The translations under genes and the position numbers were made by a program. Under the pieces are notes generated by a model that saw nothing but the letters and a program-made list of their open reading frames with translations, was not told where the DNA came from and made no database searches. A stretch of DNA of 34,900 nt from an uncultured Verrucomicrobia subdivision 3 bacterium (GTDB lineage Bacteria > Verrucomicrobiota > Verrucomicrobiia > Limisphaerales > UBA11358), in NCBI GenBank assembly GCA_903944085.1, contig CAJAQO010000052.1, positions 1 through 34,900 of the forward strand, read 5' to 3'. The number at the start of each line of letters is the position of its first letter. The stretch's first letter is position 1. Below are positions 5,178-24,016 of the stretch, piece after piece.

Positions 5178-6196
5178 GCGGCCGGCCGGAAAAAATTCTC
5201 GCGCTGCAATTCAAATACCTCGGCGACGCCGTCTTCATCACCCCGGCGCTGCGGGCGCTGCGAGCGCATTGGCCGGACGCCGAATTGCACGTGCTGGTCG
5301 CCGCCGAGGTCGCGCCGCTGCTGGAAAATCTGCCATGGATTAAAAAAATCTGGCCGCTCCCGCGCACGCGCGGGCGGGCACGGCTGCGCGAAACGTGGCC
5401 GGTCATTCGCGCCTTGCGCCGCGAGCAATTTGCCCGGTCGGTGGATTTCGGCGGCAACGACCGCGGCGCGATCTTGAGTTTCCTCTCCGGCGCGAAAATT
5501 CGCTTAGGCGAGGCATCGTGCCGCCCCAAGCTGCTCAAACGGATTGCCTACACCGACAAATTTCCGGCAGAGCAGCTGCCGGAATCGTGGGTGCAGCGAC
5601 ATCTGAAATTATTGTCCGCCTGGCAGGTTCCGCCGCCCAAGTCCGCCCATTTGGAAATCGCCGCCGATCCAAAACTGGCAAATGAGGCGGCAAAATTGTT
5701 GCCGGGCAAATGTGTTCTTTGCCACCTCGCCACGTCGCAGCCCAAAAAAGAATGGCCGCCGCCGCGGTGGGCGGAATTTTACCGGCTCGCCAAAGCGGCG
5801 GGCGTGGCGCTCGCCTTTTCCTCCGGCACGAACGCGCGCGAACGCGCCTTGCTGGCCGAACTTAAAAAACTGGAGCCGGAAATTTTTGCGCTGCCGCCGG
5901 TGCCGGATTTGCGGCTGTTTCTGGCGGTGCTGCGGCGGGCGCAGACGGTGATTTCCGGCGACACCGGGCCGCTGCATTTCGCCGCCGGGCTGGGCGTGCC
6001 GGTCATCGGACTGTTCGCCACCGGCGATTCGCTCTGTCGCGCGGCACCGATTTACCGGCCCGACCAAATCGTGGCCGCGACGGCTTGTGCCTGCGACCGG
6101 CGTTTGCTAAATGATGCGGTCTGTCACGAGGCCAATCCATGCATGGCGACGATTTTGCCGGCAACGGTTTTCGCAGCATTGCCAAAACTCATTTGA
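5174..6196 (+). CDS. Glycosyltransferase family 9 (heptosyltransferase-like)
   Basis: This 340-residue GT9 protein has the family opening KILALQFKYLGDAVFITPAL, a central VDFGGNDRGAILSFLSGA segment and the donor-site motif VISGDTGPLHFAAGLGVPVI near residue 270. It starts on a GTG whose bases overlap the TGA stop of the ABC exporter, so the two are probably translated together. It differs in sequence from the GT9 at 2101-3180 but shares its fold. A cysteine-rich tail (CACDRRLLNDAVCHEANPC) is seen near the C-terminus and is typical of some members. Predicted role: transfer of heptose or a related sugar to a growing LPS core or surface glycan. Confidence 0.87.
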   Translation: MSGRPEKILALQFKYLGDAVFITPALRALRAHWPDAELHVLVAAEVAPLLENLPWIKKIWPLPRTRGRARLRETWPVIRALRREQFARSVDFGGNDRGAILSFLSGAKIRLGEASCRPKLLKRIAYTDKFPAEQLPESWVQRHLKLLSAWQVPPPKSAHLEIAADPKLANEAAKLLPGKCVLCHLATSQPKKEWPPPRWAEFYRLAKAAGVALAFSSGTNARERALLAELKKLEPEIFALPPVPDLRLFLAVLRRAQTVISGDTGPLHFAAGLGVPVIGLFATGDSLCRAAPIYRPDQIVAATACACDRRLLNDAVCHEANPCMATILPATVFAALPKLI

Positions 6197-6200
6197 AGCC

Positions 6201-7382
6201 GTGACGTCCGTCGCCAACATCCTTTCGCCGCGCAAGCCTTGGGCCGACTGGGGGCTGATTGTTTTTTTCGCGGCGCTGCTTTGGCTGCCGACCGTGGATT
6301 TTTTCACTGGCGTGGATCGCACCGAGCCGCCGGGGGAAAACCGGATGCCCGCGCCCAAGCCGCGGCTGGCGCAGTGGAATTTGTCTGGCGTGCAGGCTTA
6401 TTTCGCCGCGGCGGAAACGTATTTCAACGATTATTTTGGTTTTCGCAAACGACTGATCCGCTGGTTTCAGCAATGGAAGATGCGGCTGTATCACGACCTG
6501 AGCGGTTACAGCGTGGTGCCGGGCCAAAACGGCTGGCTGTTCCGGGGCGAAGACCAGATGGTGGATCATTATCTGGGCCTGGCCAAGTTCACGCCGGCGC
6601 AATTGAAAAGCTGGCAGACGCTGTTGGAAAAGCGGCGCGACTGGCTGGCGGCGCGCGGCATCAAATATCTTTTTGTCATCCCGCCGAACAAGCAGGTGGT
6701 GTATCCGGAATTTCTGCCGGTCTGGCTGCAACAAGCCACGCCCGCCCGGCGCGAGACCAAGCTCGACCAGTTTCTGCAATACATGAAGGCGCATTCCACC
6801 GTGGAAATCCTCGACTTGCGCCCGGTGCTGCTGGCGGCGAAAACCTATGCGCCGACTTATCTCCAGAATGACATGCACTGGAATGCCTACGGTAGCTTCG
6901 TCGCCTGTCAGGAAGTGATCAAAACATTGACGAAACAATTTCCAGATTTGCCGCCGTTGCGCCGCGAAGATTTCATCTGGACCAATCCGCCCGCCACCGG
7001 CGGCGATCTGGCCCGGATCCTTGGCTGGAACGTGGCGGAAAAAAATTATTTTCCCTATCAGCCCGGCCCGACATTGCCCGTGCTGCGCACGAATGAAAAT
7101 CGCGCCTTCAAATCCAACTGGGGCAGCAAGCCGCTTTCCATCGTGGAAAATCCCGGGCCCGTGCGGCGGAAAGTGGTGCTGTTCAACGATTCCTTTGGCG
7201 GCTCATGGCTGCAATTTTTGGGGCAGAGTTTTCAGCGGTCGGTGTTTGAATGGGAAAGCCGGGAATTCTACACGCCGCTGATTTCATCGAACGCTCCGGA
7301 CGTGGTGATCAACGAGATTCTAGAGGGATTTTTTTATATCCGGGACCCGCAGGAAATGCTCGTCAAGGATGCGCTGCCATGA
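6201..7382 (+). CDS. AlgJ/AlgX-like SGNH O-acetyltransferase protein (copy 1)
   Basis: This protein is predicted to acetylate an exported polysaccharide together with the adjacent MBOAT protein. It has one N-terminal hydrophobic anchor (about residues 17-30) and a large extracytoplasmic domain. SGNH-type catalytic residues are visible: Asp224 and His226 in DMHW and Ser331 in NDSFGG. The start is set to GTG at 6201, 4 bp after the preceding stop. From this start it aligns from residue 1 with the paralogue at 8895 (shared SPR..WxDW at residues 9-17), and the catalytic Asp and His fall at the same residue numbers, 224 and 226. A longer upstream frame from 6111 lies inside the GT9 gene. Stretches such as RRDWLAARGIKYLFVIPP are identical in the two copies. 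Confidence 0.85.
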   Translation: MTSVANILSPRKPWADWGLIVFFAALLWLPTVDFFTGVDRTEPPGENRMPAPKPRLAQWNLSGVQAYFAAAETYFNDYFGFRKRLIRWFQQWKMRLYHDLSGYSVVPGQNGWLFRGEDQMVDHYLGLAKFTPAQLKSWQTLLEKRRDWLAARGIKYLFVIPPNKQVVYPEFLPVWLQQATPARRETKLDQFLQYMKAHSTVEILDLRPVLLAAKTYAPTYLQNDMHWNAYGSFVACQEVIKTLTKQFPDLPPLRREDFIWTNPPATGGDLARILGWNVAEKNYFPYQPGPTLPVLRTNENRAFKSNWGSKPLSIVENPGPVRRKVVLFNDSFGGSWLQFLGQSFQRSVFEWESREFYTPLISSNAPDVVINEILEGFFYIRDPQEMLVKDALP

Positions 7383-7439: not shown

Positions 7440-8891
7440 ATGGTTTTCAGCTCACCCTTGTTTTTATTCCTGTTCCTGCCCGTCGTCCTGACGGTTTATT
7501 TTTTGCTGCCCGGATTGCGCGCGCGCAACACCTGGCTGCTGCTGGTCAGCCTCCTTTTTTACGCGTGGGGCGAAATCGGTTTTATCCTGCTGCTGCTCGT
7601 TTCCACGCTCATCAACTTTGAGCTGGGTAAATGGGTGGAACGCAGCGAGGAAATTTCCAAACGCAAAAAAGCTGTCGCCGTCGCCGTCATCGTCAACGTG
7701 GGCTTTCTCGCGTTTTTCAAATACGCCGGGCTGGCGGTGGCTTCGCTCAATATGCCGCTGAAGTTTTTCGGCCTCGCCGCCGTGCCGGTGCCGCACATCG
7801 CGCTGCCCATCGGCATTTCGTTTTTCACCTTCCACGCGCTGTCTTACATCATTGACATTTATCGGCGCAAATGGCGCGCGGCCCGCGACCCGCGCGACGT
7901 GGCGCTTTACATTTTCTTTTTTCCGCAGCTCATCGCCGGGCCGATTCTGCGCTGGAACGCCATCGCGCCGCAGTTGGCGCAGCGGAATTCCAACCGCGCC
8001 AATTTCGCGGAAGGCGTGCGCCGGTTTGTCGGCGGCTTCGCCAAGAAAATGATTGTCGCCAACGCCGTGGCGTTGCCGGCCGACCAGATTTTCGCACTGC
8101 CCGCTGGCGAGCTTTCCGCGCCGGTCGCGTGGCTGGGCATTGCGTGCTACACCATCCAAATCTACTTCGATTTTTCCGGCTACTCGGACATGGCAGTCGG
8201 CCTCGGAAAAATGTTCGGCTTCCAGTTCATCGAGAATTTCAATTTTCCTTACACCGCGCAATCCATCAAAGATTTCTGGCGGCGCTGGCACATTTCGCTG
8301 TCCAGTTGGTTTCGCGACTACGTTTATATTCCGCTCGGCGGCAACCGAGTTTCCTCCATGCGCACCCACGTCAATCTCGTCGCGGTTTTTTTCCTGTGCG
8401 GCCTGTGGCACGGCGCGAACTGGACCTTTGTGGCGTGGGGCTTGTTTCACGGCATTTTTCTCGTGGTGGAAAAAACGCCCTGGGGCGGCGCGCTGGAACG
8501 GCTGCCGCGCGCGCTGCGGCATTGTTACGCCATCTTCGTCGTGATGATGGGCTGGGTGCTGTTCCGGGCGGACACTTTTGCCGGCGCGGCAAATTTCTTC
8601 GCCGCGCTGTTTGGGCTCGGCCACGTCACGCAGGCGCAGCCGCTGCATCGCTACACCAGCCGCGAAGTCATCTGGGCGTTGTGTCTCGGTGCGGCCTTCA
8701 GTCTGCCGCTGTGGGATGCGGTGAAAAACGTCGGGACGAAAATCAGCGGCCGGATCCCGGCGGCGGGACGCGAAGTTTATTTTGGTGTCGGGCAGGTCCT
8801 CGAAATTTTTTTCGTGGTGGCCTTGCTGCTGATTTCGGCGGCGTGGCTCGCGGGCGGCACTTACAATCCGTTCATCTATTTCCGCTTTTGA
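7440..8891 (+). CDS. MBOAT O-acyltransferase, AlgI-like
   Basis: This 483-residue polytopic inner-membrane protein of the MBOAT family moves acetyl groups across the membrane for O-acetylation of a polysaccharide. The hallmark region is clear: FWRRWHISLSSWFRDYVYIP (His284 inside) and, downstream, FFLCGLWHGANW with the conserved catalytic His324. About ten or more hydrophobic segments cover the length. It is flanked by two AlgJ/AlgX-like partners, with 57 bp before it and 3 bp after it, so the three genes form one module. AlgI/DltB/PatA families share this signature. The SGNH partners point to AlgI/PatA-type polysaccharide acetylation and not to D-alanylation. Confidence 0.9.
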   Translation: MVFSSPLFLFLFLPVVLTVYFLLPGLRARNTWLLLVSLLFYAWGEIGFILLLLVSTLINFELGKWVERSEEISKRKKAVAVAVIVNVGFLAFFKYAGLAVASLNMPLKFFGLAAVPVPHIALPIGISFFTFHALSYIIDIYRRKWRAARDPRDVALYIFFFPQLIAGPILRWNAIAPQLAQRNSNRANFAEGVRRFVGGFAKKMIVANAVALPADQIFALPAGELSAPVAWLGIACYTIQIYFDFSGYSDMAVGLGKMFGFQFIENFNFPYTAQSIKDFWRRWHISLSSWFRDYVYIPLGGNRVSSMRTHVNLVAVFFLCGLWHGANWTFVAWGLFHGIFLVVEKTPWGGALERLPRALRHCYAIFVVMMGWVLFRADTFAGAANFFAALFGLGHVTQAQPLHRYTSREVIWALCLGAAFSLPLWDAVKNVGTKISGRIPAAGREVYFGVGQVLEIFFVVALLLISAAWLAGGTYNPFIYFRF

Positions 8892-8894
8892 CGA

Positions 8895-10082
8895 ATGAAT
8901 TCCGCTCCCGCCTGTTCCTCACCGCGCCGCACCTGGTCTGACTGGATTGTGATCGCCATTTTTTTGTTGCTGCTTTGGGCGCCAATGGCGGACAAGTTTT
9001 TCCATTTCGACCGCGCGCGCACGGCTGGCGAAAACCGGCTGCCGGCCCCGCGCCCGCAGCTCCGCGAATTGCGCGCCGGCCAGGTGCCGAAATTCCTGGC
9101 CGCCAGCGAAGCTTACTTCAACGATCATTTCGGATTTCGCAGCCAGCTCATCGGCTGGTTTCAAAGCTGGAAGCTGGCCGTTTATCACGATCGCGGCGTC
9201 AACCAAGTCGTCACCGGGCGGGATCATTGGCTGTTCATCGCCGAGGAGCAAATGGTTGAGCATTATCTCGGCCTGTTGAAATTGCCGCCGCAGAAATTAC
9301 AAGCCTGGCAGAGCCTGCTGGAACAGCGCCGCGACTGGCTGGCGGCTCGCGGCATCAAATATCTCTTCGTCATTCCGCCGGACAAGCAGACGATTTATCC
9401 CGAAGAACTGCCCGGCTGGCTCGTCAACGCCGCGCCCGCCGGCCGCGAAACCAAGCTCGACCAGTTTCTGAAATACATGCAGGCGCATTCCACCGTTGAA
9501 ATTCTCGACTTGCGCGCGCCGCTGCTGGCCGCGAAACAAACCGCCCCGACTTATCTGCAAAACGACACGCACTGGAATCGGTTTGGCGGCTTCGTGGCGT
9601 GTCAGGAAGTGATCAAGAAATTGTCGCCGTTCATGCCGGATTTGCCGCCGCTGCGCCTGGCAGATTTCAGTTGGACGAATATTCCCGCGACCGGCGGCGA
9701 TTTGGCGCAAATGCTCGGCGCGGAGGACGCCATTGAAAAAAATTATTTTCAATTCACGCCCGGCTCCGGTTTGCCGGCGCTGAAAATCGAGGACGCGACC
9801 AACCTGGTCTCGCGGTGGGATGCGCACAAGTCGAGCCGGATCGTGGAAAATCCCGGCCGCGCGACCAAAACCGCCGTGGTGTTTCACGACTCGTTCGGCC
9901 TGGCGTGGCCGGAATTCCTCGGTTACAGCTTCAAGAAAATGGTGTTCATGGCCGACAACCGCGAATTCAATCCGGCATTGATTTTGGAAAACCACCCGGA
10001 CATCGTCATCAACGAAATGCTGGAGCGCTATTTTAACGTGCAGTATCCGGAAGAGCTGATGGCCAAAGAACCGCTGCCTTGA
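8895..10082 (+). CDS. AlgJ/AlgX-like SGNH O-acetyltransferase protein (copy 2)
   Basis: This 395-residue paralogue of the protein at 6201 starts at an ATG 3 bp after the MBOAT stop. It has a short cytoplasmic head, one hydrophobic anchor (about residues 18-31), and an SGNH-like domain with Asp224 and His226 in DTHW and Ser333 in HDSFG. Conserved blocks shared with copy 1 include GENRxPAPxPxL, YFNDxFGFR, AHSTVEILDLR and the C-terminal VINEx-LE. Both copies keep every catalytic residue, so neither looks decayed. Two partners for one MBOAT protein suggests either two acceptor positions or a heteromeric complex; this is an inference. It is the last gene of the glycan operon. Confidence 0.85.
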   Translation: MNSAPACSSPRRTWSDWIVIAIFLLLLWAPMADKFFHFDRARTAGENRLPAPRPQLRELRAGQVPKFLAASEAYFNDHFGFRSQLIGWFQSWKLAVYHDRGVNQVVTGRDHWLFIAEEQMVEHYLGLLKLPPQKLQAWQSLLEQRRDWLAARGIKYLFVIPPDKQTIYPEELPGWLVNAAPAGRETKLDQFLKYMQAHSTVEILDLRAPLLAAKQTAPTYLQNDTHWNRFGGFVACQEVIKKLSPFMPDLPPLRLADFSWTNIPATGGDLAQMLGAEDAIEKNYFQFTPGSGLPALKIEDATNLVSRWDAHKSSRIVENPGRATKTAVVFHDSFGLAWPEFLGYSFKKMVFMADNREFNPALILENHPDIVINEMLERYFNVQYPEELMAKEPLP

Positions 10083-12200: not shown

Positions 12201-15200
12201 ATGTCGCACGCCGATTTTGTCCATTTGCATTTGCACACCGAGTATTCCCTGCTCGATGGCGCGTGCCGCTTGGACAAATTGATGGACCGGGCGCATGAAC
12301 TGAAATTCCCCGCGCTCGCCATTACCGACCACGGCGCGATGCACGGCGCGATTGAGTTTTATCAGGCCGCTCGCGCGAAAGGCATCAAGCCGATCATCGG
12401 GTGCGAAGTTTACGTCGCGCCGGGTTCGCGGTTGGAACGCAAGCAGAGCAACGGTGAGAAATATCATCACCTCGGCCTGCTCGCCAAGGACAACATCGGC
12501 TACAAAAATCTCATCCGGCTCACGACCGCCGCGCATCTGGAGGGCTATTATTACAAGCCGCGCATTGATAAAGAAATTCTCGCGGCGCACAGCGAAGGCT
12601 TGATCGCGATGTCCGGCTGCCTCGCCAGCGAAATTCCCGACTGGATCATGAAAGACCAGTTGGACCAGGCGCGCGACGCGGTGGATTTTTTCAAGCAGAC
12701 GCTCGGCGCGGAGAATTTTTTCCTGGAACTGCAAAACCACGGCATCCCGGATCAGGCCAAGGTCAACAGCCACCTGATCAAATGGTCCAAGGAATTCGGC
12801 CTGAAACTCGTCGCGACGAACGACGTGCATTACATCGAGAAAAGCCATTCGCACGCGCACGACTGCCTGGTCTGCATCGGCACGCAGACGCTGTTGAGCG
12901 ATCCGAAGCGCATGAGCGCGGGCTATGTGCCGGAGCAGTTTTATCTGCGCAGCGCGGAGGAAATGAAGGCGCGTTTCGCCGAGGTGCCGGAGGCGGTGCA
13001 AAACACTTTGGAGGTGGCGGAGAAATGCAACCTGGAGATCAAGTTCGGCGAAAACAAATATCCGGTGTTCACTCCGCCGGAACATTTCACGCGGGAAGGA
13101 TATTTGCGCCAGCAGGTCGCGGAAGGCTTGTTTCGCCGCTACACCATTCACGCGAAGGCCGAGGGGAAAGAATTTATCGTCACGGGCATTGACGAGCCGA
13201 AGCGGCTGCCGACGTATCAAGAAGTGGCACGGGCGTCTCGCCCGTGTGATCCAGGCGATGAACACACGGGCGAGACGCCCGTGCCACTAATAAACGATCC
13301 CGCTGTCGCCGCTGCGATCAAAACCGTCATTGACCGTTTGCAGTTGGAACTGACGGTCATCGAAAAGACCGGTTTCATTTCTTATTTTCTCATCGTCGCC
13401 GATTTCATCCGGCACGGGCGGGAAAAGGGAATTTCCTGCGTGGCGCGCGGTAGCGCCGCCGGTTCGATTGTCACCTACCTGCTGGAAATCGCGAACGTGG
13501 ATCCGATCCGCTACGGGCTGCTGTTCGAGCGCTTCCTGAATCCCGAGCGCGTCAATCCGCCGGATATTGACATTGATTTCGCGGACGACCGCCGGGCGGA
13601 CGTCATCGAATATGTCCGCGAAAAATATGGGCGCGATGCCGTGGCGCAAATCATCACGTTCGGCACGATGGGCGCGAAATCCGTGGTGCGCGACGTGGGC
13701 CGCGTGATGGGTTTGCCGTATGGCGATTGCGACCGGCTGGCGAAACTGATTCCCGCCGAATTAAAAATGGATTTGACGAAGGCGCTCAAGCAGGTGCCGG
13801 AACTCAAGGAGGCTTACGACAACGAAGAAGTCACGCGCGAGCTGATTGACACGGCGTTCATTCTCGAAGACCTCACGCGGAACGCCAGTGTTCACGCGGC
13901 GGGCGTCGTCATCGGGCCGGAGCCGCTGGTGAATTTGCTGCCGCTGAAATTGGACGACAGCGGCACGCTCGTGACGCAATACGCGATGAATCCGGTCGGC
14001 GAACTGGGTTTGCTGAAGATGGATTTTCTCGGACTGAAAACGCTGACCGTCATCCGCAACACCTGCGAGATGGTCAAGCGCACGGAGGGCGTCACGATTG
14101 ATATTGACCATCTGCCGCTCGATGACAAAAAAACTTACAACCTCCTGAACCGCGCGGAAACGCTCGGCGTATTTCAATTGGAATCCGGCGGCATGCGCGA
14201 CCTGTGCAAAAAATTTCAGATCAGTTCCGTCGAGCACATCACGGCGCTGGTGGCGCTGTATCGGCCCGGACCGATGGATTTGATTCCCGATTTCATCAAG
14301 CGCCGCCATGGCGAAATTGAAATCAAATATGAGCATCCGCTGCTCGAATCCATTTCCAAGGAGACCTACGGCATCCTGATTTATCAGGAGCAGGTGATGC
14401 AGGCGACGCAGTTGCTGGCCGGCTTCACGCTGGGCGCGGCGGATTTGCTGCGCCGCGCGATGGGCAAGAAAAAGGTCGAGGAAATGGCCAAGCAGCGCGA
14501 GAAATTCGTCAAGGGCTGCCACGAGACCAACCAAATTCCCAAGACCAAGGCGAACCAGATTTTCGACTTGCTGGAAAAATTCGCCGGCTACGGTTTCAAC
14601 AAATCGCACGCCGCCGCGTATGCCATCGTCGCGTATCAAACCGCGTATCTGAAGGCGAATTATCCGGTGGAATTTTACTGCGCCATGATGACGAACGACA
14701 TGGCGGCCACGGAAAAATTGAGCGAATACATCGCCGAGGCGCGGGAAGTGGGCATCGAAGTGCTGGGCCCGGATGTGAACGAAAGCAGCGTGTATTTCGC
14801 GCCGGCGCAAAGCCTAGTGGCACGGGCGTCCCGCCCGTGTGAACAAAGCAAGGAACTCACGGGCGAGACGCCCGTGCCACTACCTTTCACACCCTTTGAC
14901 AAGAATCGTCCCGCCAGCATTTACACCCGCAGCCTGCCCCATTGGCAACAAGATGGAGCCACCTATTTCGTTACCTTCCGACTGGCCGATTCATTGCCGA
15001 AGGAAGTATTCAACCGCTGGCGGGAAGAGTTGGACACGGCTTTGCGCGAGGCGGCCCAAGCAGCCGATGCGACTGAAACCGAAAAAGCCGAAGCGGCGGA
15101 AAGAGTTTCCGAAGCCTATCGCGAAAAGCTGGACCGGCAGCTTGACGAAGGCGTGGGCGAGTGCTGGCTTCGCAAGCCCGAAGTCTCGGCGGTGGTGGAA

Positions 15201-16601
15201 AATGCGCTGCATCATTTTGATGGTGCCCGTTACCAATTGGGCAGCTTTGTCATCATGCCCAATCACGTTCATGTGCTGGTGCGCCCGGCGATGGGACACA
15301 AACTGCCGGACATTCTGCAAGCCTGGAAATCTTTCACGGCCAAGGAGGCAAACAAGCTGCTCGGTCGCACCGGCGAGTTCTGGCAGGCGGAATCGTTTGA
15401 TCACATTGTTCGGAACGAAGAGCAGTTGGAAAAATTTGGCCGTTATATTCAGGAAAATCCGATCAAGGCCGGAATAGTAGTGGCACGGGCGTCCCGCCCG
15501 TGTGAACAAAGCAAGGAACTCACGGGCGAGACGCCCGTGCCACTACGCCGCATTCGCTTCGGCCTTGCGGCGATCAAAGGGGTTGGCGAATTGGCGGTCG
15601 AGTCGCTCCTCAAGGCGCGGGACGAGGGCGGAAAATTCAAGTCGCTCGCCGAGATGTGCGAGCGCGTGGACGGCCGCACGGTGAACCGGCGCGTTTTGGA
15701 AGCATTCATCAAAACCGGCGCGTGCGACTGCTTTGGCCAGACGCGCGCGACTTTGACGGCGCAGGTTGAACGCACGCTGGCGCGGGCCGCGAGCATTTTG
15801 TCCGACAAGCAAAAAGGGCAAAGCTCGCTCTTCGGCGCGCTGGAAGAAAAAGCGCCGCCGATGCCGGAAGCCATTTCCAATCTGCCCGAATGGCCGCAGC
15901 ACGAACTGCTCGCGCACGAAAAAGAATTGCTCGGATTTTACGTCACCGGCCATCCGCTGACGCCGCTGGTGCCGCTGCTGGAAAAATTTTCGCTCACCAC
16001 CACCGCCAAGCTCGCCGAACTGCCGAACCGCAGTTTGACGCGCATCGGCGGCATGATCGCGGCGGTGACGCACGGCGTTTCCAAAAAATCCGGCAAGCCG
16101 TATTCCATGGTCACGCTGGAAGATTTGGAAGGCTCGGTGCAATTGCTGGTGATGAACGACTACGACAAGTTTCGTCCGCTGCTGGAAGTGAACAAGGCCA
16201 TTCTCGTCATCGGCGAAATCACCACCGGCGAGGACCGTCCGAAAATTTTTCCGCAGGACATCATGCCGCTCGCCGACGCGGCGAAAAAATACACCAAGCA
16301 GGTGCATCTGCGCCTGCAGATGGCGCATTTGCAGGTGGCGGATTTGACAAAGGTGCAGGAACTCGTCGCCGCGCACGCCGGCAAATGCCCGCTGTTCCTG
16401 TGTTTCATGCGGCCCGAAGGCGGGACGGTTTTTGTCGGCGCGCACGAGCGCTTTGGCGTCATGCCGTCGCTGGAACTCGAACAGGCGGCCAATAAACTTT
16501 TTGGCGAAAAAACTTATTACGCCCGCGTGGACACCAGCCTGCCGGAAAAGCAGCGCCGCAGTTGGGAAAAGAAAAGTGGCAACGGCGGCGGCGACGAATA
16601 A
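12201..16601 (+). CDS. dnaE: DNA polymerase III alpha subunit with in-frame RAYT and hairpin insertions
   Basis: This is the replicative polymerase subunit, 1466 codons, against about 1150-1200 usual. Seen in order: PHP domain from FVHLHLHTEYSLLDG at the N-terminus; palm with PDIDIDF (Asp457, Asp459) and KMDFLGL (Asp608) as the catalytic carboxylates; fingers with GYGFNKSHAAAYA; helix-hairpin-helix GLAAIKGVG from about residue 1121; a clamp-binding motif QSSLF at 1207-1211; then an OB-fold (IGGMIAAVTHGVSKKSGK). The excess length comes from two insertions, both in frame. The first is a 22-residue hairpin-encoded peptide at 342-363. The second covers residues 873-1115: hairpin peptide, a complete Y1 transposase-like domain (about 895-1093), and hairpin peptide again. 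Polymerase sequence resumes at RRIRFGLAAIKG. No stop or frameshift is seen, so a single fused protein is predicted. Confidence 0.95.
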   Translation: MSHADFVHLHLHTEYSLLDGACRLDKLMDRAHELKFPALAITDHGAMHGAIEFYQAARAKGIKPIIGCEVYVAPGSRLERKQSNGEKYHHLGLLAKDNIGYKNLIRLTTAAHLEGYYYKPRIDKEILAAHSEGLIAMSGCLASEIPDWIMKDQLDQARDAVDFFKQTLGAENFFLELQNHGIPDQAKVNSHLIKWSKEFGLKLVATNDVHYIEKSHSHAHDCLVCIGTQTLLSDPKRMSAGYVPEQFYLRSAEEMKARFAEVPEAVQNTLEVAEKCNLEIKFGENKYPVFTPPEHFTREGYLRQQVAEGLFRRYTIHAKAEGKEFIVTGIDEPKRLPTYQEVARASRPCDPGDEHTGETPVPLINDPAVAAAIKTVIDRLQLELTVIEKTGFISYFLIVADFIRHGREKGISCVARGSAAGSIVTYLLEIANVDPIRYGLLFERFLNPERVNPPDIDIDFADDRRADVIEYVREKYGRDAVAQIITFGTMGAKSVVRDVGRVMGLPYGDCDRLAKLIPAELKMDLTKALKQVPELKEAYDNEEVTRELIDTAFILEDLTRNASVHAAGVVIGPEPLVNLLPLKLDDSGTLVTQYAMNPVGELGLLKMDFLGLKTLTVIRNTCEMVKRTEGVTIDIDHLPLDDKKTYNLLNRAETLGVFQLESGGMRDLCKKFQISSVEHITALVALYRPGPMDLIPDFIKRRHGEIEIKYEHPLLESISKETYGILIYQEQVMQATQLLAGFTLGAADLLRRAMGKKKVEEMAKQREKFVKGCHETNQIPKTKANQIFDLLEKFAGYGFNKSHAAAYAIVAYQTAYLKANYPVEFYCAMMTNDMAATEKLSEYIAEAREVGIEVLGPDVNESSVYFAPAQSLVARASRPCEQSKELTGETPVPLPFTPFDKNRPASIYTRSLPHWQQDGATYFVTFRLADSLPKEVFNRWREELDTALREAAQAADATETEKAEAAERVSEAYREKLDRQLDEGVGECWLRKPEVSAVVENALHHFDGARYQLGSFVIMPNHVHVLVRPAMGHKLPDILQAWKSFTAKEANKLLGRTGEFWQAESFDHIVRNEEQLEKFGRYIQENPIKAGIVVARASRPCEQSKELTGETPVPLRRIRFGLAAIKGVGELAVESLLKARDEGGKFKSLAEMCERVDGRTVNRRVLEAFIKTGACDCFGQTRATLTAQVERTLARAASILSDKQKGQSSLFGALEEKAPPMPEAISNLPEWPQHELLAHEKELLGFYVTGHPLTPLVPLLEKFSLTTTAKLAELPNRSLTRIGGMIAAVTHGVSKKSGKPYSMVTLEDLEGSVQLLVMNDYDKFRPLLEVNKAILVIGEITTGEDRPKIFPQDIMPLADAAKKYTKQVHLRLQMAHLQVADLTKVQELVAAHAGKCPLFLCFMRPEGGTVFVGAHERFGVMPSLELEQAANKLFGEKTYYARVDTSLPEKQRRSWEKKSGNGGGDE
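13223..13288. repeat. GTGGCACGGGCG palindromic element inside dnaE (PHP-palm linker)
   Basis: A perfect 25-bp inverted repeat (arms 13223-13247 and 13264-13288, 16-nt loop) makes a 66-bp unit. It adds exactly 22 codons, read as VARASRPC...TGETPVPL, and leaves the polymerase frame open. It belongs to the same family as the copies at 14815, 15478 and 18174, but has a different loop. Confidence 0.9.
14815..14882. repeat. GTGGCACGGGCG palindrome, left flank of RAYT
   Basis: This 68-bp palindrome has 25-bp arms with a single mismatch (CGTCCCG against CGAGACG). It is identical base for base to the copy at 15478-15545. It is read in frame as VARASRPC...TGETPVPL (residues 873-894 of the dnaE product). 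Confidence 0.92.
15478..15545. repeat. GTGGCACGGGCG palindrome, right flank of RAYT
   Basis: This is an identical direct copy of 14815-14882, read in frame as residues 1094-1115 of the dnaE product. Recombination between the two copies would remove 663 bp and keep the frame. Confidence 0.92.
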
Positions 16602-18283: not shown

Positions 18284-21200
18284 TCATTTGTTGTTTTTAA
18301 ATTGTCCAAAGCGCAGCGCCAGCGTCGGCAGCACCAGCAGGTTCAGCGCGGTGGAAGTCACCAACCCGCCTAGAATAACAATCGCCATCGGTCCTTCAAT
18401 TTCGCGGCCCGCTTCGCCGCTGCCGAGCGCGAGCGGCAACAAGCCGAGCGCCGTGACGAGCGCGGTCATCAAAATCGGAATGAGTCGTTCCGTCGCGCCG
18501 CGCAACGCGGTTTCAATTCCCCACGGCAGTTTTTCTTCGTTCACCAGATGTTCGAAATGCGAGATCATCATAATGGAATTGCGCATCGTGATACCAAACA
18601 AAGTGACGAAGCCGACCAGCGTGCCGAGCGACAGCGAGCCTTGCCCTTCGCCGAAATATCCGACCAGAAAAATCGCCAGCACGCCGCCGACCAACGCGAA
18701 CGGCAGATTCGCCAGCACCAGCAGCAGATAGCTGGCTTTGCGGAAGACCACGGCGAGCAGCAAAATAATTCCCGCCGTCGCGGCGAGCGAGTGCAGGAGC
18801 AATTCCGTTTGCGCCTGCTTTTGTTCCTGCGCTGCGCCGCTGAATTCGGCATAGACGCCCGCCGGAAATTTCACCTGCGACTCGATTTGCTTTTGCGCAT
18901 CGGCGACAAACGACGCCACGTCGCGGCCTGCTGGATTGCAGGTGATGGTTTGCCGCCGCCGCGCGCCGTCGTGCAAAATCGCGTAGCGCCCGGTGGTGAG
19001 AAAAACGTCGGCCAGTTGTTTCAGCGGCATTCGCGCGCCTTGCGGATTGCTGATGAGCAAATTGCCGATGCTTTCCGGCTGCTGCCGCGCGGCTGGTTCC
19101 AAAATCACCGTCACGTCAAAAACTTTTTCGCCCTCGTAAGTTTGCGCGACAACGTCGCCTTGATACGCGGTGCGAACAGCTTCCAAAACTTCGAGCGGAC
19201 GAAAGCCAAACTGCGTCAGCCGGTCAGGCCGCAGCTTGATCATCACGCGCGGCGCGCCCGGTGGCGCGGAAACCTGCACGTCCGCCGCGCCGGGAACTTT
19301 ATTCAGCGCGGCGGCGACTTCATTGGCCTTTTCGTCGAGCACGTCGAGGTCGTCGCCAAAAATGTTCACCACGACTTGCGCGGTTTCACCGGAAATCGTC
19401 TCGCCGATGCGATCACCGAGAAACGTCAGCACTTCGCTTTCCACGCCGGGAAATTTTTTTAGTGTTTCCCGAATGGCATCCTGCACTTTTTCCTGGTCCT
19501 CGCCGGCAGTCGGTTTCAGCTCGATGTGCATTTCGCCGCGATGCGAGCCCCAAGTATCTTCGCCGCCTTCAGCACGACCGATTTGTTCCTCGAGGCTTTG
19601 AATCTGCGGAATTTTCAGCAACTCCGCCGAAATCTGTGTGCCGAGCCGTTTCATTTCCGGCAGCGAAGTTCCCGGCGCCATCGTGATGCCGACCACAAAA
19701 TGGCCTTCGCGAAAATCCGGCAGAAATTCGCCGCCAAAAAACGGCAGCGTGGCCAGAGCGGCGCTGAAGGCCAGCAACGCGATCACCACAATTGTCTTGG
19801 GTCGGTTGCTGATTTTTTCGAGCGCGCGGCGGTGAACGGATTTTAATTTCCGCAGATAAACCGGTTCCTCGTGCGGCTTGGAACGCGACAGTAGCGCGTA
19901 GCACAGCGCCGGCGTGACCGTGAGCGCGACAAGCAACGACGCGAGATTGGCGAGGATGAAAGCCACGCCGAGCGGCGCAAAAAACTTGCCCTGCAAACCG
20001 CTCATGGTCAGCACCGGCACGAAGACCATCGCGACGACGAACGTGGCATAGACCACCGAGTTCCGCACCTCGAGCGTGGCGTCGAGCACGACGTTGAACA
20101 ATGCGCGCGGCGGCGTGAGCGTCAGATTTTCGCGCAGCCGGCGCAGAATATTTTCCACGGTGATGATCGCGTCGTCCACAACTACGCCCAGCACCGCCGC
20201 AAGTCCGCCGAGCGTCATCGTGTTCAGCGTCACGCCAAAATGATCCAGCACCACGACCGCCGCGAGCAGCGACAGCGGAATGGCCGTAAATGAAATCAGC
20301 GCCGTCCGCAAATCCAGCAAAAACAAAATCAGCACCACCGCCACCAGCACCGCGCCGAGCAGCAGCGACGTTTTCATGTTGCGCAGCGCGATTTCGATGA
20401 ACGTCGCCGGCCGGTGCAGCGCGGGCGTGTATTCGATTCCTTCCGCCGCAAACGCCGGTTTCAAATTCTCCAGCGCCGCCTCGACCGTGCGCGTGACTTC
20501 CAGTGTGTTCGCGCCGTATTGACTGGCCGTCGTGATTAGCACGCCCGGTTTGCCGTTGATGATGGCGTCGCCAAATTTCGGTTCCGCGCCTTCGATGACA
20601 TTCGCCACGTCCTTCAAGCGGATGCTGCGACCGTCGCGCTGCGTCACGACAATTTCGCCGAGTTGTTCCGCCGTGAGCGATTGGCCTTCGGTCTGGAGCA
20701 CGAGCCGTTGCGCCGGCGTTTCGACAAAGCCCGCGCCGCGCACGCCGGTCGCCTCGGCGGCCGCGCTCGAAACATCCTGGACGGAAATTCCGAACGCGAG
20801 CAGACGGTCGGGCCGGATTTGAATCTGCATTTGCCGCACTTCGCCGCCGAAAACTTTCGTCGCCGCCACACCGGGAACGGAAAGCAATCGCGGGCGCACC
20901 GTCCAGTCGGCGAAAGTCCGCAGCTCCATCGGCGAAATTTTTTCCGAGGTCAGCCCAAATTTCAGCAAATCCATTGTGGACGAAGTCAGCGGCTCCATTT
21001 TTGGCGATTGCACGCCGGCGGGCAGATCGCCGCCGAGTTGCGCCAGCCGCTCGGTGAGCATTTGCCGCGCGATGTGGATGTCCGTGCCCTCCTTGAAAAC
21101 AGCCGTGACGACGGACAAACCCTGGATGGATTCCGAGCGAATCGAATCGAGATCGCCCGCGCCATTCAAAGCGCTTTCGACCGGCCGCGTGACGAGCGCC

Positions 21201-21385
21201 TCGACCTGTTCCGGCGCGAGGCCCGGCGCTTCGGTTTGCACGGTGGCCTGCGGCTGGACGAATTCGGGAAACACGTCGAGCTTCGCGTGCGTCGTGACGA
21301 ACAGCCCGTAGCAAATGAAGCCGACCGCCAGCGTGATGACCACGCCGCGCGAGCCCAAAGAAATTTCTACAAGTCGGCGCAACAT
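18284..21385 (-). CDS. RND efflux pump inner-membrane subunit, CzcA/CusA-like
   Basis: This 1033-residue proton-driven pump subunit has the RND topology: a single N-terminal helix, a large periplasmic loop, six helices, a second loop and six more helices. Family motifs include DVFPEFVQPQATVQTEAPGL near residue 37, TMTLGGLAAVLGVVVDDAII near residue 390 with the paired aspartates of transmembrane helix 4, and the repeated second-half motif LVGFVTLFGITMRNSIMMI near residue 930. Length matches the heavy-metal efflux group. It is the last gene of the operon (beta-propeller, TolC-like, fusion protein, pump), with 4 bp between it and the fusion protein. Metal specificity cannot be read; Cu/Ag or Co/Zn/Cd are the likely classes, and a drug substrate is less likely. 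Confidence 0.9.
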   Translation of the reverse strand: MLRRLVEISLGSRGVVITLAVGFICYGLFVTTHAKLDVFPEFVQPQATVQTEAPGLAPEQVEALVTRPVESALNGAGDLDSIRSESIQGLSVVTAVFKEGTDIHIARQMLTERLAQLGGDLPAGVQSPKMEPLTSSTMDLLKFGLTSEKISPMELRTFADWTVRPRLLSVPGVAATKVFGGEVRQMQIQIRPDRLLAFGISVQDVSSAAAEATGVRGAGFVETPAQRLVLQTEGQSLTAEQLGEIVVTQRDGRSIRLKDVANVIEGAEPKFGDAIINGKPGVLITTASQYGANTLEVTRTVEAALENLKPAFAAEGIEYTPALHRPATFIEIALRNMKTSLLLGAVLVAVVLILFLLDLRTALISFTAIPLSLLAAVVVLDHFGVTLNTMTLGGLAAVLGVVVDDAIITVENILRRLRENLTLTPPRALFNVVLDATLEVRNSVVYATFVVAMVFVPVLTMSGLQGKFFAPLGVAFILANLASLLVALTVTPALCYALLSRSKPHEEPVYLRKLKSVHRRALEKISNRPKTIVVIALLAFSAALATLPFFGGEFLPDFREGHFVVGITMAPGTSLPEMKRLGTQISAELLKIPQIQSLEEQIGRAEGGEDTWGSHRGEMHIELKPTAGEDQEKVQDAIRETLKKFPGVESEVLTFLGDRIGETISGETAQVVVNIFGDDLDVLDEKANEVAAALNKVPGAADVQVSAPPGAPRVMIKLRPDRLTQFGFRPLEVLEAVRTAYQGDVVAQTYEGEKVFDVTVILEPAARQQPESIGNLLISNPQGARMPLKQLADVFLTTGRYAILHDGARRRQTITCNPAGRDVASFVADAQKQIESQVKFPAGVYAEFSGAAQEQKQAQTELLLHSLAATAGIILLLAVVFRKASYLLLVLANLPFALVGGVLAIFLVGYFGEGQGSLSLGTLVGFVTLFGITMRNSIMMISHFEHLVNEEKLPWGIETALRGATERLIPILMTALVTALGLLPLALGSGEAGREIEGPMAIVILGGLVTSTALNLLVLPTLALRFGQFKNNK

Positions 21386-21389
21386 TTTT

Positions 21390-22586
21390 TTAATCGCGTG
21401 TGCCCGTGTTAAATCCGCCGCCGCTCAATTCGGCGGACAAAACCGTCTGCGCTCCGGTGACGATGACGTGATTCGTCGCCAACAGATTTTCCGAGACGAA
21501 CCAGCCGTTGTCCGTCAGCCGGTCGAGCGGGATTTCCGTGCGCAAAAATTGATTTGTCTCCGTCTGCACATAAACCCAGCCCTTGCCTTCGTGCCGCAAA
21601 ACGGCGCTCGCCGGCACCACCACGCCGCCGACCGGCTCGCCTGGCATTTTGATGAACGCCGTCACCGCTTCGCCCGGCGTGAGCCGGTTGGTCTGCGACA
21701 GGTCGGCGGAAAATAAAATTCCCTGCTGCTGCGTTTGCGGGTCCATCGCCGGCAGCAAATCAAAACAAGTCGCCGTGACCGGCGCGGCGTTTTCCGCCAG
21801 CGAAACGATGCGCGCCGTCTGCGCGTTATTTTCCAGCCGTTCGCCCGGCGGCAGGTCAATGCGGATCAAAATTGTGTTCTCGCGCAGGCTTTCCAAAAAT
21901 TTGTCCGGTTGCCGTTGCGTGCCGGCAGGAACCTCGACCGGTCCCAGACTTTCCGCGATTTTCCGGCCCCAGCCGGTTTGAACTTTGAGCAGCACGGCCA
22001 GCGCGGCGGCGCGATTTTGTGAAAAAGCCGTTTGCGCATCTTGGAATGCGCGCTCCGAAATGTTGTTGTCCTTTTTCAACTGCTTCGCGCGTTCCAGTTC
22101 CTGCTGCGAGCTGTCCAAGGCGATTTCGGCGCGTCCCAATTCCATCATTGAATCCAGCAGCGGCGCGGGATCGAGCACGCGGCCATAAACTTTCATTTCC
22201 GGCTGCCACTGCGCCGGCGCGGGCGTCTCAATTTTTAAGCCGATGCGTTCCTGCGTCGCCGCGTCAATCGTCACGCCGGCTTTGGCTGGTGCCTCGGCCT
22301 TTTCCGGCGCGTCAGCCGTTTTGTCGCCGGCGGGCTTGGAACAACTGGCCAGCAGCGCGATTGAAAACAACATCGCTAGCGCAAGTGCAAAACTGCAAAC
22401 CCTCACCCTGACCCTCTCCCGTCCGACGGGAGAGGGAACAGCCAGCGATTGGTTTTCGTTTTGCGAATGAGCATCCGGCAAATCCAGTCGCGGCATTTTG
22501 TTGGAGGCGGCGAACGTTTCACCCTCTCCCATCGGATGGGAGAAGGCCAGGGCGAGGGCAATTCCAAAATCCAATTTATTTTTCAT
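21390..22586 (-). CDS. RND membrane-fusion (periplasmic adaptor) lipoprotein with split signal peptide
   Basis: This CusB/CzcB-type adaptor joins the RND pump to the TolC-like channel. Seen: an alpha-hairpin region around residues 140-185 (LGRAEIALDSSQQELERAKQ), beta-barrel segments, and the membrane-proximal GEAVTAFIKMPGEPVGGVVV region near residue 300. The ATG at 22586 overlaps the TolC-like stop (ATGA), which argues for coupled initiation there. The first residues, MKNKLDFGI, look like the start of a signal peptide, but the hydrophobic core and lipobox (LLASC, Cys82) come about 60 residues later. The gap is filled by a 160-bp palindromic repeat. Internal GTG at 22406 (codon 61) would restore a normal 22-residue lipoprotein signal, so the working start is uncertain. 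Confidence 0.85.
   Translation of the reverse strand: MKNKLDFGIALALAFSHPMGEGETFAASNKMPRLDLPDAHSQNENQSLAVPSPVGRERVRVRVCSFALALAMLFSIALLASCSKPAGDKTADAPEKAEAPAKAGVTIDAATQERIGLKIETPAPAQWQPEMKVYGRVLDPAPLLDSMMELGRAEIALDSSQQELERAKQLKKDNNISERAFQDAQTAFSQNRAAALAVLLKVQTGWGRKIAESLGPVEVPAGTQRQPDKFLESLRENTILIRIDLPPGERLENNAQTARIVSLAENAAPVTATCFDLLPAMDPQTQQQGILFSADLSQTNRLTPGEAVTAFIKMPGEPVGGVVVPASAVLRHEGKGWVYVQTETNQFLRTEIPLDRLTDNGWFVSENLLATNHVIVTGAQTVLSAELSGGGFNTGTRD
22400..22559. repeat. 160-bp inverted repeat element inside the fusion-protein signal sequence
   Basis: Two related arms face each other: CCCTCACCCTGACCCTCTCC plus hairpin at 22400-22436, and its diverged complement at about 22521-22559. Each arm contains its own small hairpin: CCCTCTCCCGT/ACGGGAGAGGG with a 3-nt loop (22412-22436), and CTCTCCCAT/ATGGGAGA with a 3-nt loop (22525-22544). 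The element is read through in frame by the adaptor gene and contributes the repeat-derived residues PMGEGE and SPVGRERVRVRV. Confidence 0.8.
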
Positions 22587-23995
22587 GGCTGTTTTGCTTT
22601 CGGATTGTCAGAAGAAATTTTTTGGATGGCGGTGGCCAGCGAATCCGCCGGGCTTTGCAGCGCGTCTTCCAGCGCGCCAATGGCGGATTGCAACTGTGCC
22701 TCACCGTCAAGCTGGGCGAGCCGGACCGTGTTCAATTCAATTTCCGCGCTCGACAAATCCAGCCGTTCGGCGGCACCGGCTTGGACCTGGGCGGCGACAG
22801 ATCTTTGCTGCGCTTCGGCGGTGGCGAGCACCGAGGCTCCGGTCTGTAATTGTTGGCGAGCCGCTGCCAGTCCGGCGACCGCGCGGTCAATCGCGCCGCT
22901 GACCTGCGCCTGCAACGCGACAAATTTTGCGGCGGCCAGTTTGCGCCGCGCCTCGGCTTCGGCAATCGGGCCTTGGTTTTGGTCGAGGATTGGCAATTCG
23001 AGCGTGACGCCGAGACTCCACTGGCTATCGCCGGCGTTGCCGTTGTTCCAAGCGTATGCCGGTCCGAGATGCAGATCGGGATATTGTTTGGCGACCTGCA
23101 AGCGCAAATCAGCTTCCGCCGTCGCGTAATCCGCCAGCGCGCCGAGAATGTCCGCGCGTCCGCGCAATGCGACGCTACGCGCTTCAGCCGTGGTCAAAGC
23201 GGCCGGCACTTTTGTGGAAAAATCAGCTTCCAATTTCACGTCGTCCAGCGCGGCGAGGCTGATGCCGAGTGCCTGCGCCAGCCGCGAACGCGCTTCGGCG
23301 CGCTTGGCCTGCGCGGAAGACAAATCAAGCTGCGACTTGTTCAGCACGATTTGCGCAGTGGTGAGTTCCGGCCGCGCGATGGCGCCGGCGTCGAGGCGCT
23401 GTTGCAACTGTTTCACAATTTCCGTTTGCGCGGCGAACTGCCTTTGCAGCAGCGCGGCGCGACGTCCGCTCATTTGAAAATCGCGCAAGGCGTCGCGGAC
23501 ATCGCTGCGAATTTTCCACGCGGCGGAAATAAAACTCCAGCGCGCGGACTCCGCCACTTTTTCCGCCTCGGCGATGCGCTTGCCACGCTTGCCGGCGGTT
23601 TCAATCGGAATGTCCAGCGTCACCGGAATGAGCCACGGACTGTAATTGCCGGGAATTTGTGTGTCGTAGCCGGGCGAAAAAGAGACAGACGGATTGGGCC
23701 GCGCGCCCGCCGTCAGCGCGCCCGCTTCGGCCACGCGCCATTGCGCGCGGGCGACTTCGAGATCGGGATGAAAATAAAACGCCGCGAGCGTGAGCGAATG
23801 AAGATCCCATTTTTCCAGCGGCCAGTGCGGGGGCGGATTGCCGAATTGCCGCGTGAGAAATTCACCGAGGCCCGCGTTGTCCAGTCGGCGCAGGTCGAAC
23901 TGCAAGGCGGTTTTCTCCGGCGACAACGGCTGCGGCTGAAAATGCGCGCAGCCGGTGACGGCGATGACGCCGCAAACCAGCGGCCAGATTTTCAT
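22583..23995 (-). CDS. TolC/CusC-like outer-membrane efflux lipoprotein
   Basis: This outer-membrane channel protein of the OEP/TolC family is about 470 residues long. ATG at 23995 gives a lipoprotein signal, MKIWPLVCGVIAVTGC, with the lipid-modified Cys at residue 16; a GTG at 24007 would add four residues. Two long coiled-coil repeats are visible, for example AAQTEIVKQLQQRLDAGAI and AAARQQLQTGASVLATAEAQ, each ending in the RP/AE..TAQ type turn typical of OEP repeats. It follows the beta-propeller gene by about 20 bp and overlaps the fusion protein by 4 bp. Together the three form a complete tripartite efflux system. Confidence 0.88.
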   Translation of the reverse strand: MKIWPLVCGVIAVTGCAHFQPQPLSPEKTALQFDLRRLDNAGLGEFLTRQFGNPPPHWPLEKWDLHSLTLAAFYFHPDLEVARAQWRVAEAGALTAGARPNPSVSFSPGYDTQIPGNYSPWLIPVTLDIPIETAGKRGKRIAEAEKVAESARWSFISAAWKIRSDVRDALRDFQMSGRRAALLQRQFAAQTEIVKQLQQRLDAGAIARPELTTAQIVLNKSQLDLSSAQAKRAEARSRLAQALGISLAALDDVKLEADFSTKVPAALTTAEARSVALRGRADILGALADYATAEADLRLQVAKQYPDLHLGPAYAWNNGNAGDSQWSLGVTLELPILDQNQGPIAEAEARRKLAAAKFVALQAQVSGAIDRAVAGLAAARQQLQTGASVLATAEAQQRSVAAQVQAGAAERLDLSSAEIELNTVRLAQLDGEAQLQSAIGALEDALQSPADSLATAIQKISSDNPKAKQP

Positions 23996-24016
23996 GCGGA
24001 CAGACACGCGACCAAC

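Follow-up and report, generated by a model that had tools for sequence, protein, structure and literature searches.

An in-frame paired triplex-motif repeat in the predicted signal peptide of an RND efflux adaptor

Introduction

A predicted RND efflux adaptor gene in the window, by which we mean the whole 34,900-nt stretch of DNA analysed here, begins with the start of a lipoprotein signal peptide, whose hydrophobic core follows only after a palindromic repeat. The locus therefore raises the questions of what the repeat is, where translation starts and what becomes of the residues that the repeat encodes. The original prediction held that a normal lipoprotein signal had been split in frame by a 160-bp inverted repeat, and that either the protein starts internally or an extended signal of about 80 residues is exported.

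The adaptor locus and its repeat

The gene lies in the order OEP–adaptor–RND (Table 1). Its product matches TIGR01730 with E=6e-15 and 55 bits, below the curated cut-off of 94.9, which places it as an RND adaptor at family level only, and MexA in the PDB matches it with E=7e-4. The reading frame is open throughout the insert, as MKNKLDFGI-[insert]-FALALAMLFSIALLASC, and the lipobox, LLAS-C82, resembles those of relatives (LAGC, ISGC and LTGC), so that Cys82 is the predicted site of lipidation and of cleavage by signal peptidase II.

The arms and the open frame bear out an inverted repeat lying in phase between MKNKLDFGI and the signal core, slightly shorter than the predicted 160 bp: it spans 159 bp, or 53 codons, between codons 9 and 66. 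The two arms, 37 nt each and 86% complementary, are 85 nt apart, and each is a near-perfect palindrome by itself. Folded as RNA, the 167-nt strand reaches −98.9 kcal/mol, compared with −57.8 ± 4.2 for shuffled sequences (z=−9.8, none of 200 equal); the DNA fold of the insert strand gives z=−6.9 against shuffles. The predicted overlap of the adaptor ATG with the upstream stop is present as ATGA, and so is the internal GTG at codon 61, followed by the Arg codon AGG.

Table 1 Predicted features of the adaptor locus and in-frame copies of the element by site
Feature	Position or locus	Strand	Reading or remark
RND efflux periplasmic adaptor (predicted lipoprotein)	21390..22586	-	398 codons
OEP gene (outer-membrane efflux protein, PF02321)	22583..24007	-	upstream of adaptor
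RND transporter (PF00873)	18284..21385	-	downstream of adaptor
ATGA, adaptor start overlapping OEP-gene stop	22583..22586	-	ancestral coupled start
Original n-region, codons 1-9	22560..22586	-	MKNKLDFGI
Paired intrastrand-triplex-motif element (inverted pair), 159 bp	22400..22558	-	in-frame insertion
Left end, inverted motif copy	22522..22558	+	gene reading ALALAFSHPMGEG
Right end, coding sense CCCTCTCCC..GGGAGAGGG-TCA-GGGTGAGGG	22400..22436	-	..GRERVRVR
SD-like GGGAGAGGG upstream of GTG61	22412-22420	-	
Internal GTG, codon 61, from element	22404..22406	-	
Hydrophobic core and lipobox, codons 66-82	22341..22391	-	FALALAMLFSIALLAS-C82
Signal peptide, window adaptor			RVRVR
Signal peptide, R.Pab1-domain protein (PF09522)	L089 (G007:C106:627-785)		RVRVR
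Signal peptide, sialidase-like lipoprotein	L114		RVRVR
Signal peptide, MbnP/CCP protein	L172		RVRVR; N-terminus, degenerate copy
Signal peptide, esterase	L179		RVRVR
Signal peptide, gamma-glutamyltranspeptidase	L300		RVRVR
Signal peptide, LolA-like	L308		RVRVR
Signal peptide, OEP lipoprotein	L295		GEGxGE (exception)
Interior, UvrD, window's genome	L020 (G000:C154:1056-1214)		GEGxGE
Interior, UvrD	L266 (G051:C24)		GEGxGE
Interior, AddB-like nuclease	L106		GEGxGE
Interior, RsmB	L160		GEGxGE
Interior, di-haem peroxidase	L172		GEGxGE
Interior, flavodoxin/FAD reductase	L181		GEGxGE
Interior, DsbH-like thioredoxin protein	L184		GEGxGE
Interior, RND	L194		GEGxGE
Interior, DnaE	L195		GEGxGE
Interior, class I tRNA synthetase (ValRS by inspection)	L199		GEGxGE
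Interior, type I restriction subunit	L201		GEGxGE
Interior, metal ATPase	L202		GEGxGE
Interior, helicase	L022		GEGxGE
Interior, NACHT-WD40 protein	L262		GEGxGE
Interior, MetH	L281		GEGxGE
Interior, EamA	L302		GEGxGE
Interior	L301		exception to GEGxGE

The repeat ends carry a known triplex motif

Each end of the element has the layout CCCTCTCCC-loop-GGGAGAGGG-3 nt-GGGTGAGGG, which follows the class II triplex-capable TM/PIT pattern Y9-loop-R9-3nt-R'9. The right end offers nine of nine Watson–Crick pairs and nine of nine possible class II triads, the left end eight pairs and seven triads. By their sequence the ends are the known G/C-rich intrastrand triplex motif TM_ECO/PIT, described by Holder et al. 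2015, citing Hoyne et al. (PMC4666352). For E. coli MG1655 the motif is described as exclusively intergenic, and inverted pairs of its A and B types also occur there (PMC4666352). The copies described here instead lie in frame in the adaptor, UvrD, DnaE, ValRS, MetH and other proteins; intergenic location is a reported habit and no part of the sequence definition, and the sequence match to TM/PIT holds.

The element fits other repeat classes less well. The window copy, flanked by GGAATTG and TTTGCAG, carries no GTAG/CGTC tag of the REP type; ACGTCC-like flanks occur on some short-arm copies. As regards a REP or TIRtron arrangement, none of 30 RAYT loci has a motif end on both sides, and four have a single motif end within ~1.5 kb. 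A RAYT as the element's own transposase was rejected, since the RAYT genes of the genus are not flanked by the element. The 37-nt arms, with similar ends in other copies, are terminal inverted repeats like those of a MITE; among 35 copies compared, no target-site duplication rose above chance beyond 2 nt, and the apparent 2-nt duplications are extensions of the inverted ends. Because target-site duplication, tag and flanked RAYT are all lacking, we classify the element neither as a REP nor as a MITE with a known transposase. Like RPEs, it is found as an open, in-frame insertion in unrelated protein genes, with 17 interior and 8 signal-peptide cases. A search of Rfam gave only chance-level matches on four element loci. 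Nor do we claim selection on the left arm, where ALTLTLS has become the more hydrophobic ALALAFS in the window; other copies show comparable base changes.

A dispersed family and a recent insertion

At E<=0.001 the element was matched in 38 of 49 genomes of the genus, the relatives' genomes being draft MAGs; family-level scope equals genus scope, as the family has one genus in the collection. Further copies are present in the window's genome, among them those at C154:1056-1214 and C110:19664-19814. Full-length copies mostly measure 147-160 bp, with 130-133-bp forms in some genomes, and the spacer is partly conserved among them. Across the class, the exact right end was found in 19 of 286 genomes, representing 14 of 137 genera. 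In the plasmid collection, matches were confined to motif ends of 40-50 bp (Azospirillum, Pantoea, E. coli and others), with no whole element. Another arrangement of the motif was seen in one genome, with five ends in tandem ~325 bp apart (L286, G291:C1:3665500-3668900).

Comparison with relatives lacking the repeat, as the original prediction had proposed, supports its view of a normal signal that has been split. The adaptor genes of 16 other loci (L028-L043) are without the element, and their signals are short, mostly 20-30 residues (for example MKTKIHFTLLVTTALFAGC and MKIVPKNLFLFALLAAVALTGC). By this comparison the element in the window's adaptor is a recent insertion. A different repeat (HPTSNIQ), encoding KEHPTSNIQRSTSN, stands at the same n-region/core junction in the adaptors of two genomes, G027 and G038, which contain 6 and 10 matching sites, respectively; the window's genome has none.

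Reading frame depends on insertion site

The sequence GAGAGGGTCAGGGTGAGGG can be read in two ways, as ..RVRVR or as ..EGQGE, and the third frame meets TGA. Among the motif ends examined (148 distinct ends from the genus and 128 from a class-level sample), copies in protein interiors use GEGxGE (GEGQGE or GEGRGE) in 16 of 17 cases and RVRVR in one, whereas copies before export cores use RVRVR in 7 of 8 and GEGxGE in one. This association of frame with site has a Fisher p=1.3e-4, on small numbers and with site classes taken from Pfam, codon scores, hydropathy and inspection, partly by eye. Copies outside the genic list provide a baseline, with 103 open in GEGxGE, 72 in RVRVR and none in the third frame; against it, interiors give p=0.0016 and signal peptides p=0.010. 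The link between frame and site is a strong tendency; an absolute rule is rejected, L295 and L301 being exceptions. It is most simply explained by protein-level selection after insertion in any frame, such that the surviving frame would be set by the site: flexible GEGxGE in folded proteins, cationic RVRVR before export cores.

The element also occurs in frame in UvrD-type helicases of three genomes (L020, L266 and L162 at G010:C84, the last assigned by sequence similarity only). The insertion site is the same in G000, the window's genome, and G010, and lies elsewhere in G051.

Signal peptides as recurrent insertion sites

Signal peptides, called by hydropathy and inspection, account for 8 of the 25 in-ORF cases, with p from 2e-9 to 2e-5 if they make up 1.5-5% of coding sequence. 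This enrichment is indicative only, because that share is our own estimate and the N-terminal cases come from a hydropathy scan made separately for them. Two of the genes deserve mention. The MbnP/cytochrome c peroxidase gene L172 (G015:C362) holds two copies, one in the RER-type frame before the signal core and one read as GEGQGE inside the protein. In L089, the protein whose apparent export signal is split by the element has an R.Pab1 restriction-endonuclease-like domain, which is unusual for an exported product.

Two starts and one mature protein

ATGA overlaps with the stop of the upstream gene are found at 14 of the 19 adaptor loci listed, the window's included (L018 and L019 duplicate L031 and L039), which indicates that the coupled ATG is ancestral and has been retained. 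As the insert keeps the frame of this ATG open, a long precursor with 81 residues before Cys82 is the default expectation. GTG61 lies in a context provided by the element, GGGAGAGGG-TCAGG-GTG-AGG, and every copy of the right-end sequence supplies the SD-like GGGAGAGGG, the GTG and the Arg codon; GTG61 is a built-in feature of the repeat end and no chance event. The predicted choice between an internal start and a signal of ~80 residues can be sharpened: the conserved, in-phase coupled ATG favours the long form as the default, and the two starts need not be mutually exclusive. Either start would lead to an identical mature lipoprotein. In the long form, a first hydrophobic stretch, FGIALALAF, and a possible signal peptidase I site, TFA-AS, could lead to wrong processing, and the net charge of the first 65 residues is only +1.

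We consider it probable that the locus arose and works as follows. An element of ~130-160 bp, two inverted TM/PIT motifs around a spacer, would have inserted between the n-region and the hydrophobic core. Ribosomes finishing the OEP gene would still start at the coupled ATG and read through the insert, giving a precursor whose n-region is ~55 residues longer and ends in the basic GRERVRVRV next to the core. Signal peptidase II would then cut before Cys82, and because it cuts there, all insert-encoded residues would be discarded and the mature adaptor left unchanged. The element end would add a back-up start, with its SD-like GGGAGAGGG, GTG and Arg. Established in this account are the lack of the element in the other adaptor genes compared, the preserved and open frame, and the retention of the ancestral ATGA-coupled start. 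Since insert-encoded residues are cut off along with the signal, we infer that signal peptides are a protein-level safe harbour for repeats.

Translation could instead begin solely at GTG61, with the element as a new 5' leader carrying its own SD and MKNKLDFGI as a relic. Such a start would yield a compact signal, MRVCSFALALAMLFSIALLASC, and GTG61 has the strongest SD-like sequence among the window starts tested, its anti-SD duplex reaching −12.2 kcal/mol compared with −0.4 for the ATG and −6.0 to +0.6 for the others. The esterase gene L179 has no open frame upstream of the element, whose GTG is the sole start before the core; since this gene apparently has no better start, the element's GTG is probably usable. 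Many N-terminal REPs have likewise been argued to be extragenic (Di Nocera et al. 2013, PMC3733652). A dead leader would, however, be free to drift, yet the ATGA-coupled start and the n-region are retained in phase, and a native-looking n-region is in phase through an open element in four of the eight signal-peptide cases (~18% expected each, p~0.04). The SD-like sequence and GTG61 are moreover paired within a very stable hairpin, and L295 uses the GEGxGE frame, without the element's GTG. We therefore regard exclusive use of GTG61 as unlikely, about one chance in a few.

Far less plausible is that the insertion disabled the adaptor and left the gene to decay. A signal of 81 residues that contains two hydrophobic stretches might be inefficient in export, but all 398 codons are open, the insertion preserved the frame, the coding potential of 0.20 per codon lies within the 0.11-0.44 of known genes, and the flanking OEP and RND genes are intact. 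An assembly artefact joining unrelated MAG pieces at repeats is the least credible explanation, for although the genome is a draft of 335 contigs and the repeat is dispersed, both flanks belong to the same operon in the order of relatives, with the end of the OEP gene and the n-region to one side of the repeat and the core with the mature adaptor to the other, and the copy's interior is unlike other copies in the genome.

We suggest tentatively, and with rather more doubt than belief, that the triplex element is a two-way coding adaptor, offering either a flexible Gly/Glu linker frame or a basic n-region frame with its own SD and GTG, so that a functional signal sequence can arise when the element inserts ahead of an export core, and signal peptides become recurrent safe harbours.

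Other in-frame repeats

The window's dnaE (12201-16601) contains three GTAG-type REP dimers in frame. Two of them, identical and 69 nt long, surround a RAYT/Y1_Tnp ORF as a REPtron at 14815-15546, and the third lies at 13222-13290. The RAYT gene is itself in frame inside DnaE, at residues ~872-1115, with its HUH motif (PNHVH) intact; no second dnaE turned up when this genome was searched with DnaE residues 1-865. In-frame RAYT domains (PF01797) occur in relatives from the genus (L246-L251), in ClpB, alanyl-tRNA synthetase, PriA and a DEAD/Helicase_C_2 helicase; the ClpB insertion is in the same region in three genomes (L246 by Pfam, L247 and L248 by sequence similarity). In the DnaE of G033:C59 (L195), the triplex element follows a few residues after GIDEPKRLPT, as does the window's REP dimer at 13222-13290, at nearly the same site. 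Unrelated repeats thus share permissive sites.

Elsewhere in the window, two similar predicted proteins (6111-7382 and 8895-10082) flank a predicted MBOAT-type acyltransferase (7440-8891); we take them to resemble alginate O-acetyltransferase accessory proteins.

Discussion

A motif called strictly intergenic in E. coli occurs here repeatedly in frame, in housekeeping and exported proteins, and the link between frame and site shows a way for repeats to enter genes and leave them functional. It leads to testable predictions on where translation starts and on signal peptides of unusual length, and annotators should be warned that some N-termini and inserted linkers of these bacteria may be repeats that are translated. 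In-frame repeats inside genes are already known from Rickettsia RPEs and from REPs; within the literature searched, which included few subscription papers, the genic triplex motif, the frame–site link and repeated entry into signal peptides are new.

RPEs (Ogata et al. 2000, as described in PMC2759123 and PMC3733652) are palindromic and inserted in frame inside unrelated genes, and N-terminally decorated proteins of R. conorii are said there to be expressed. The likeness to our element is one of description, and we found no site-dependent frame or signal-peptide preference for RPEs in these two papers. REPs with GTAG/CGTC tags also lie inside ORFs, often those of DNA repair genes (UvrD, RecBCD, DnaE), and many intragenic REPs are found in another verrucomicrobium, Opitutus terrae (Di Nocera et al. 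2013, PMC3733652). They are, however, 20-40-bp units or dimers with that tag, which the window copy lacks, and the RAYTs here are not flanked by the element. In Yersinia pestis YPO1552, an RU-2/YPAL repeat forms part of the predicted signal (Delihas 2007, PMC2759123); there the repeat lies within the signal itself, whereas our element separates n-region from core, and does so in several unrelated genes. The TM/PIT motif of E. coli shares the sequence and the inverted A/B pairs, but the element described here is longer, has a spacer that is partly conserved and lies within genes and in frame.
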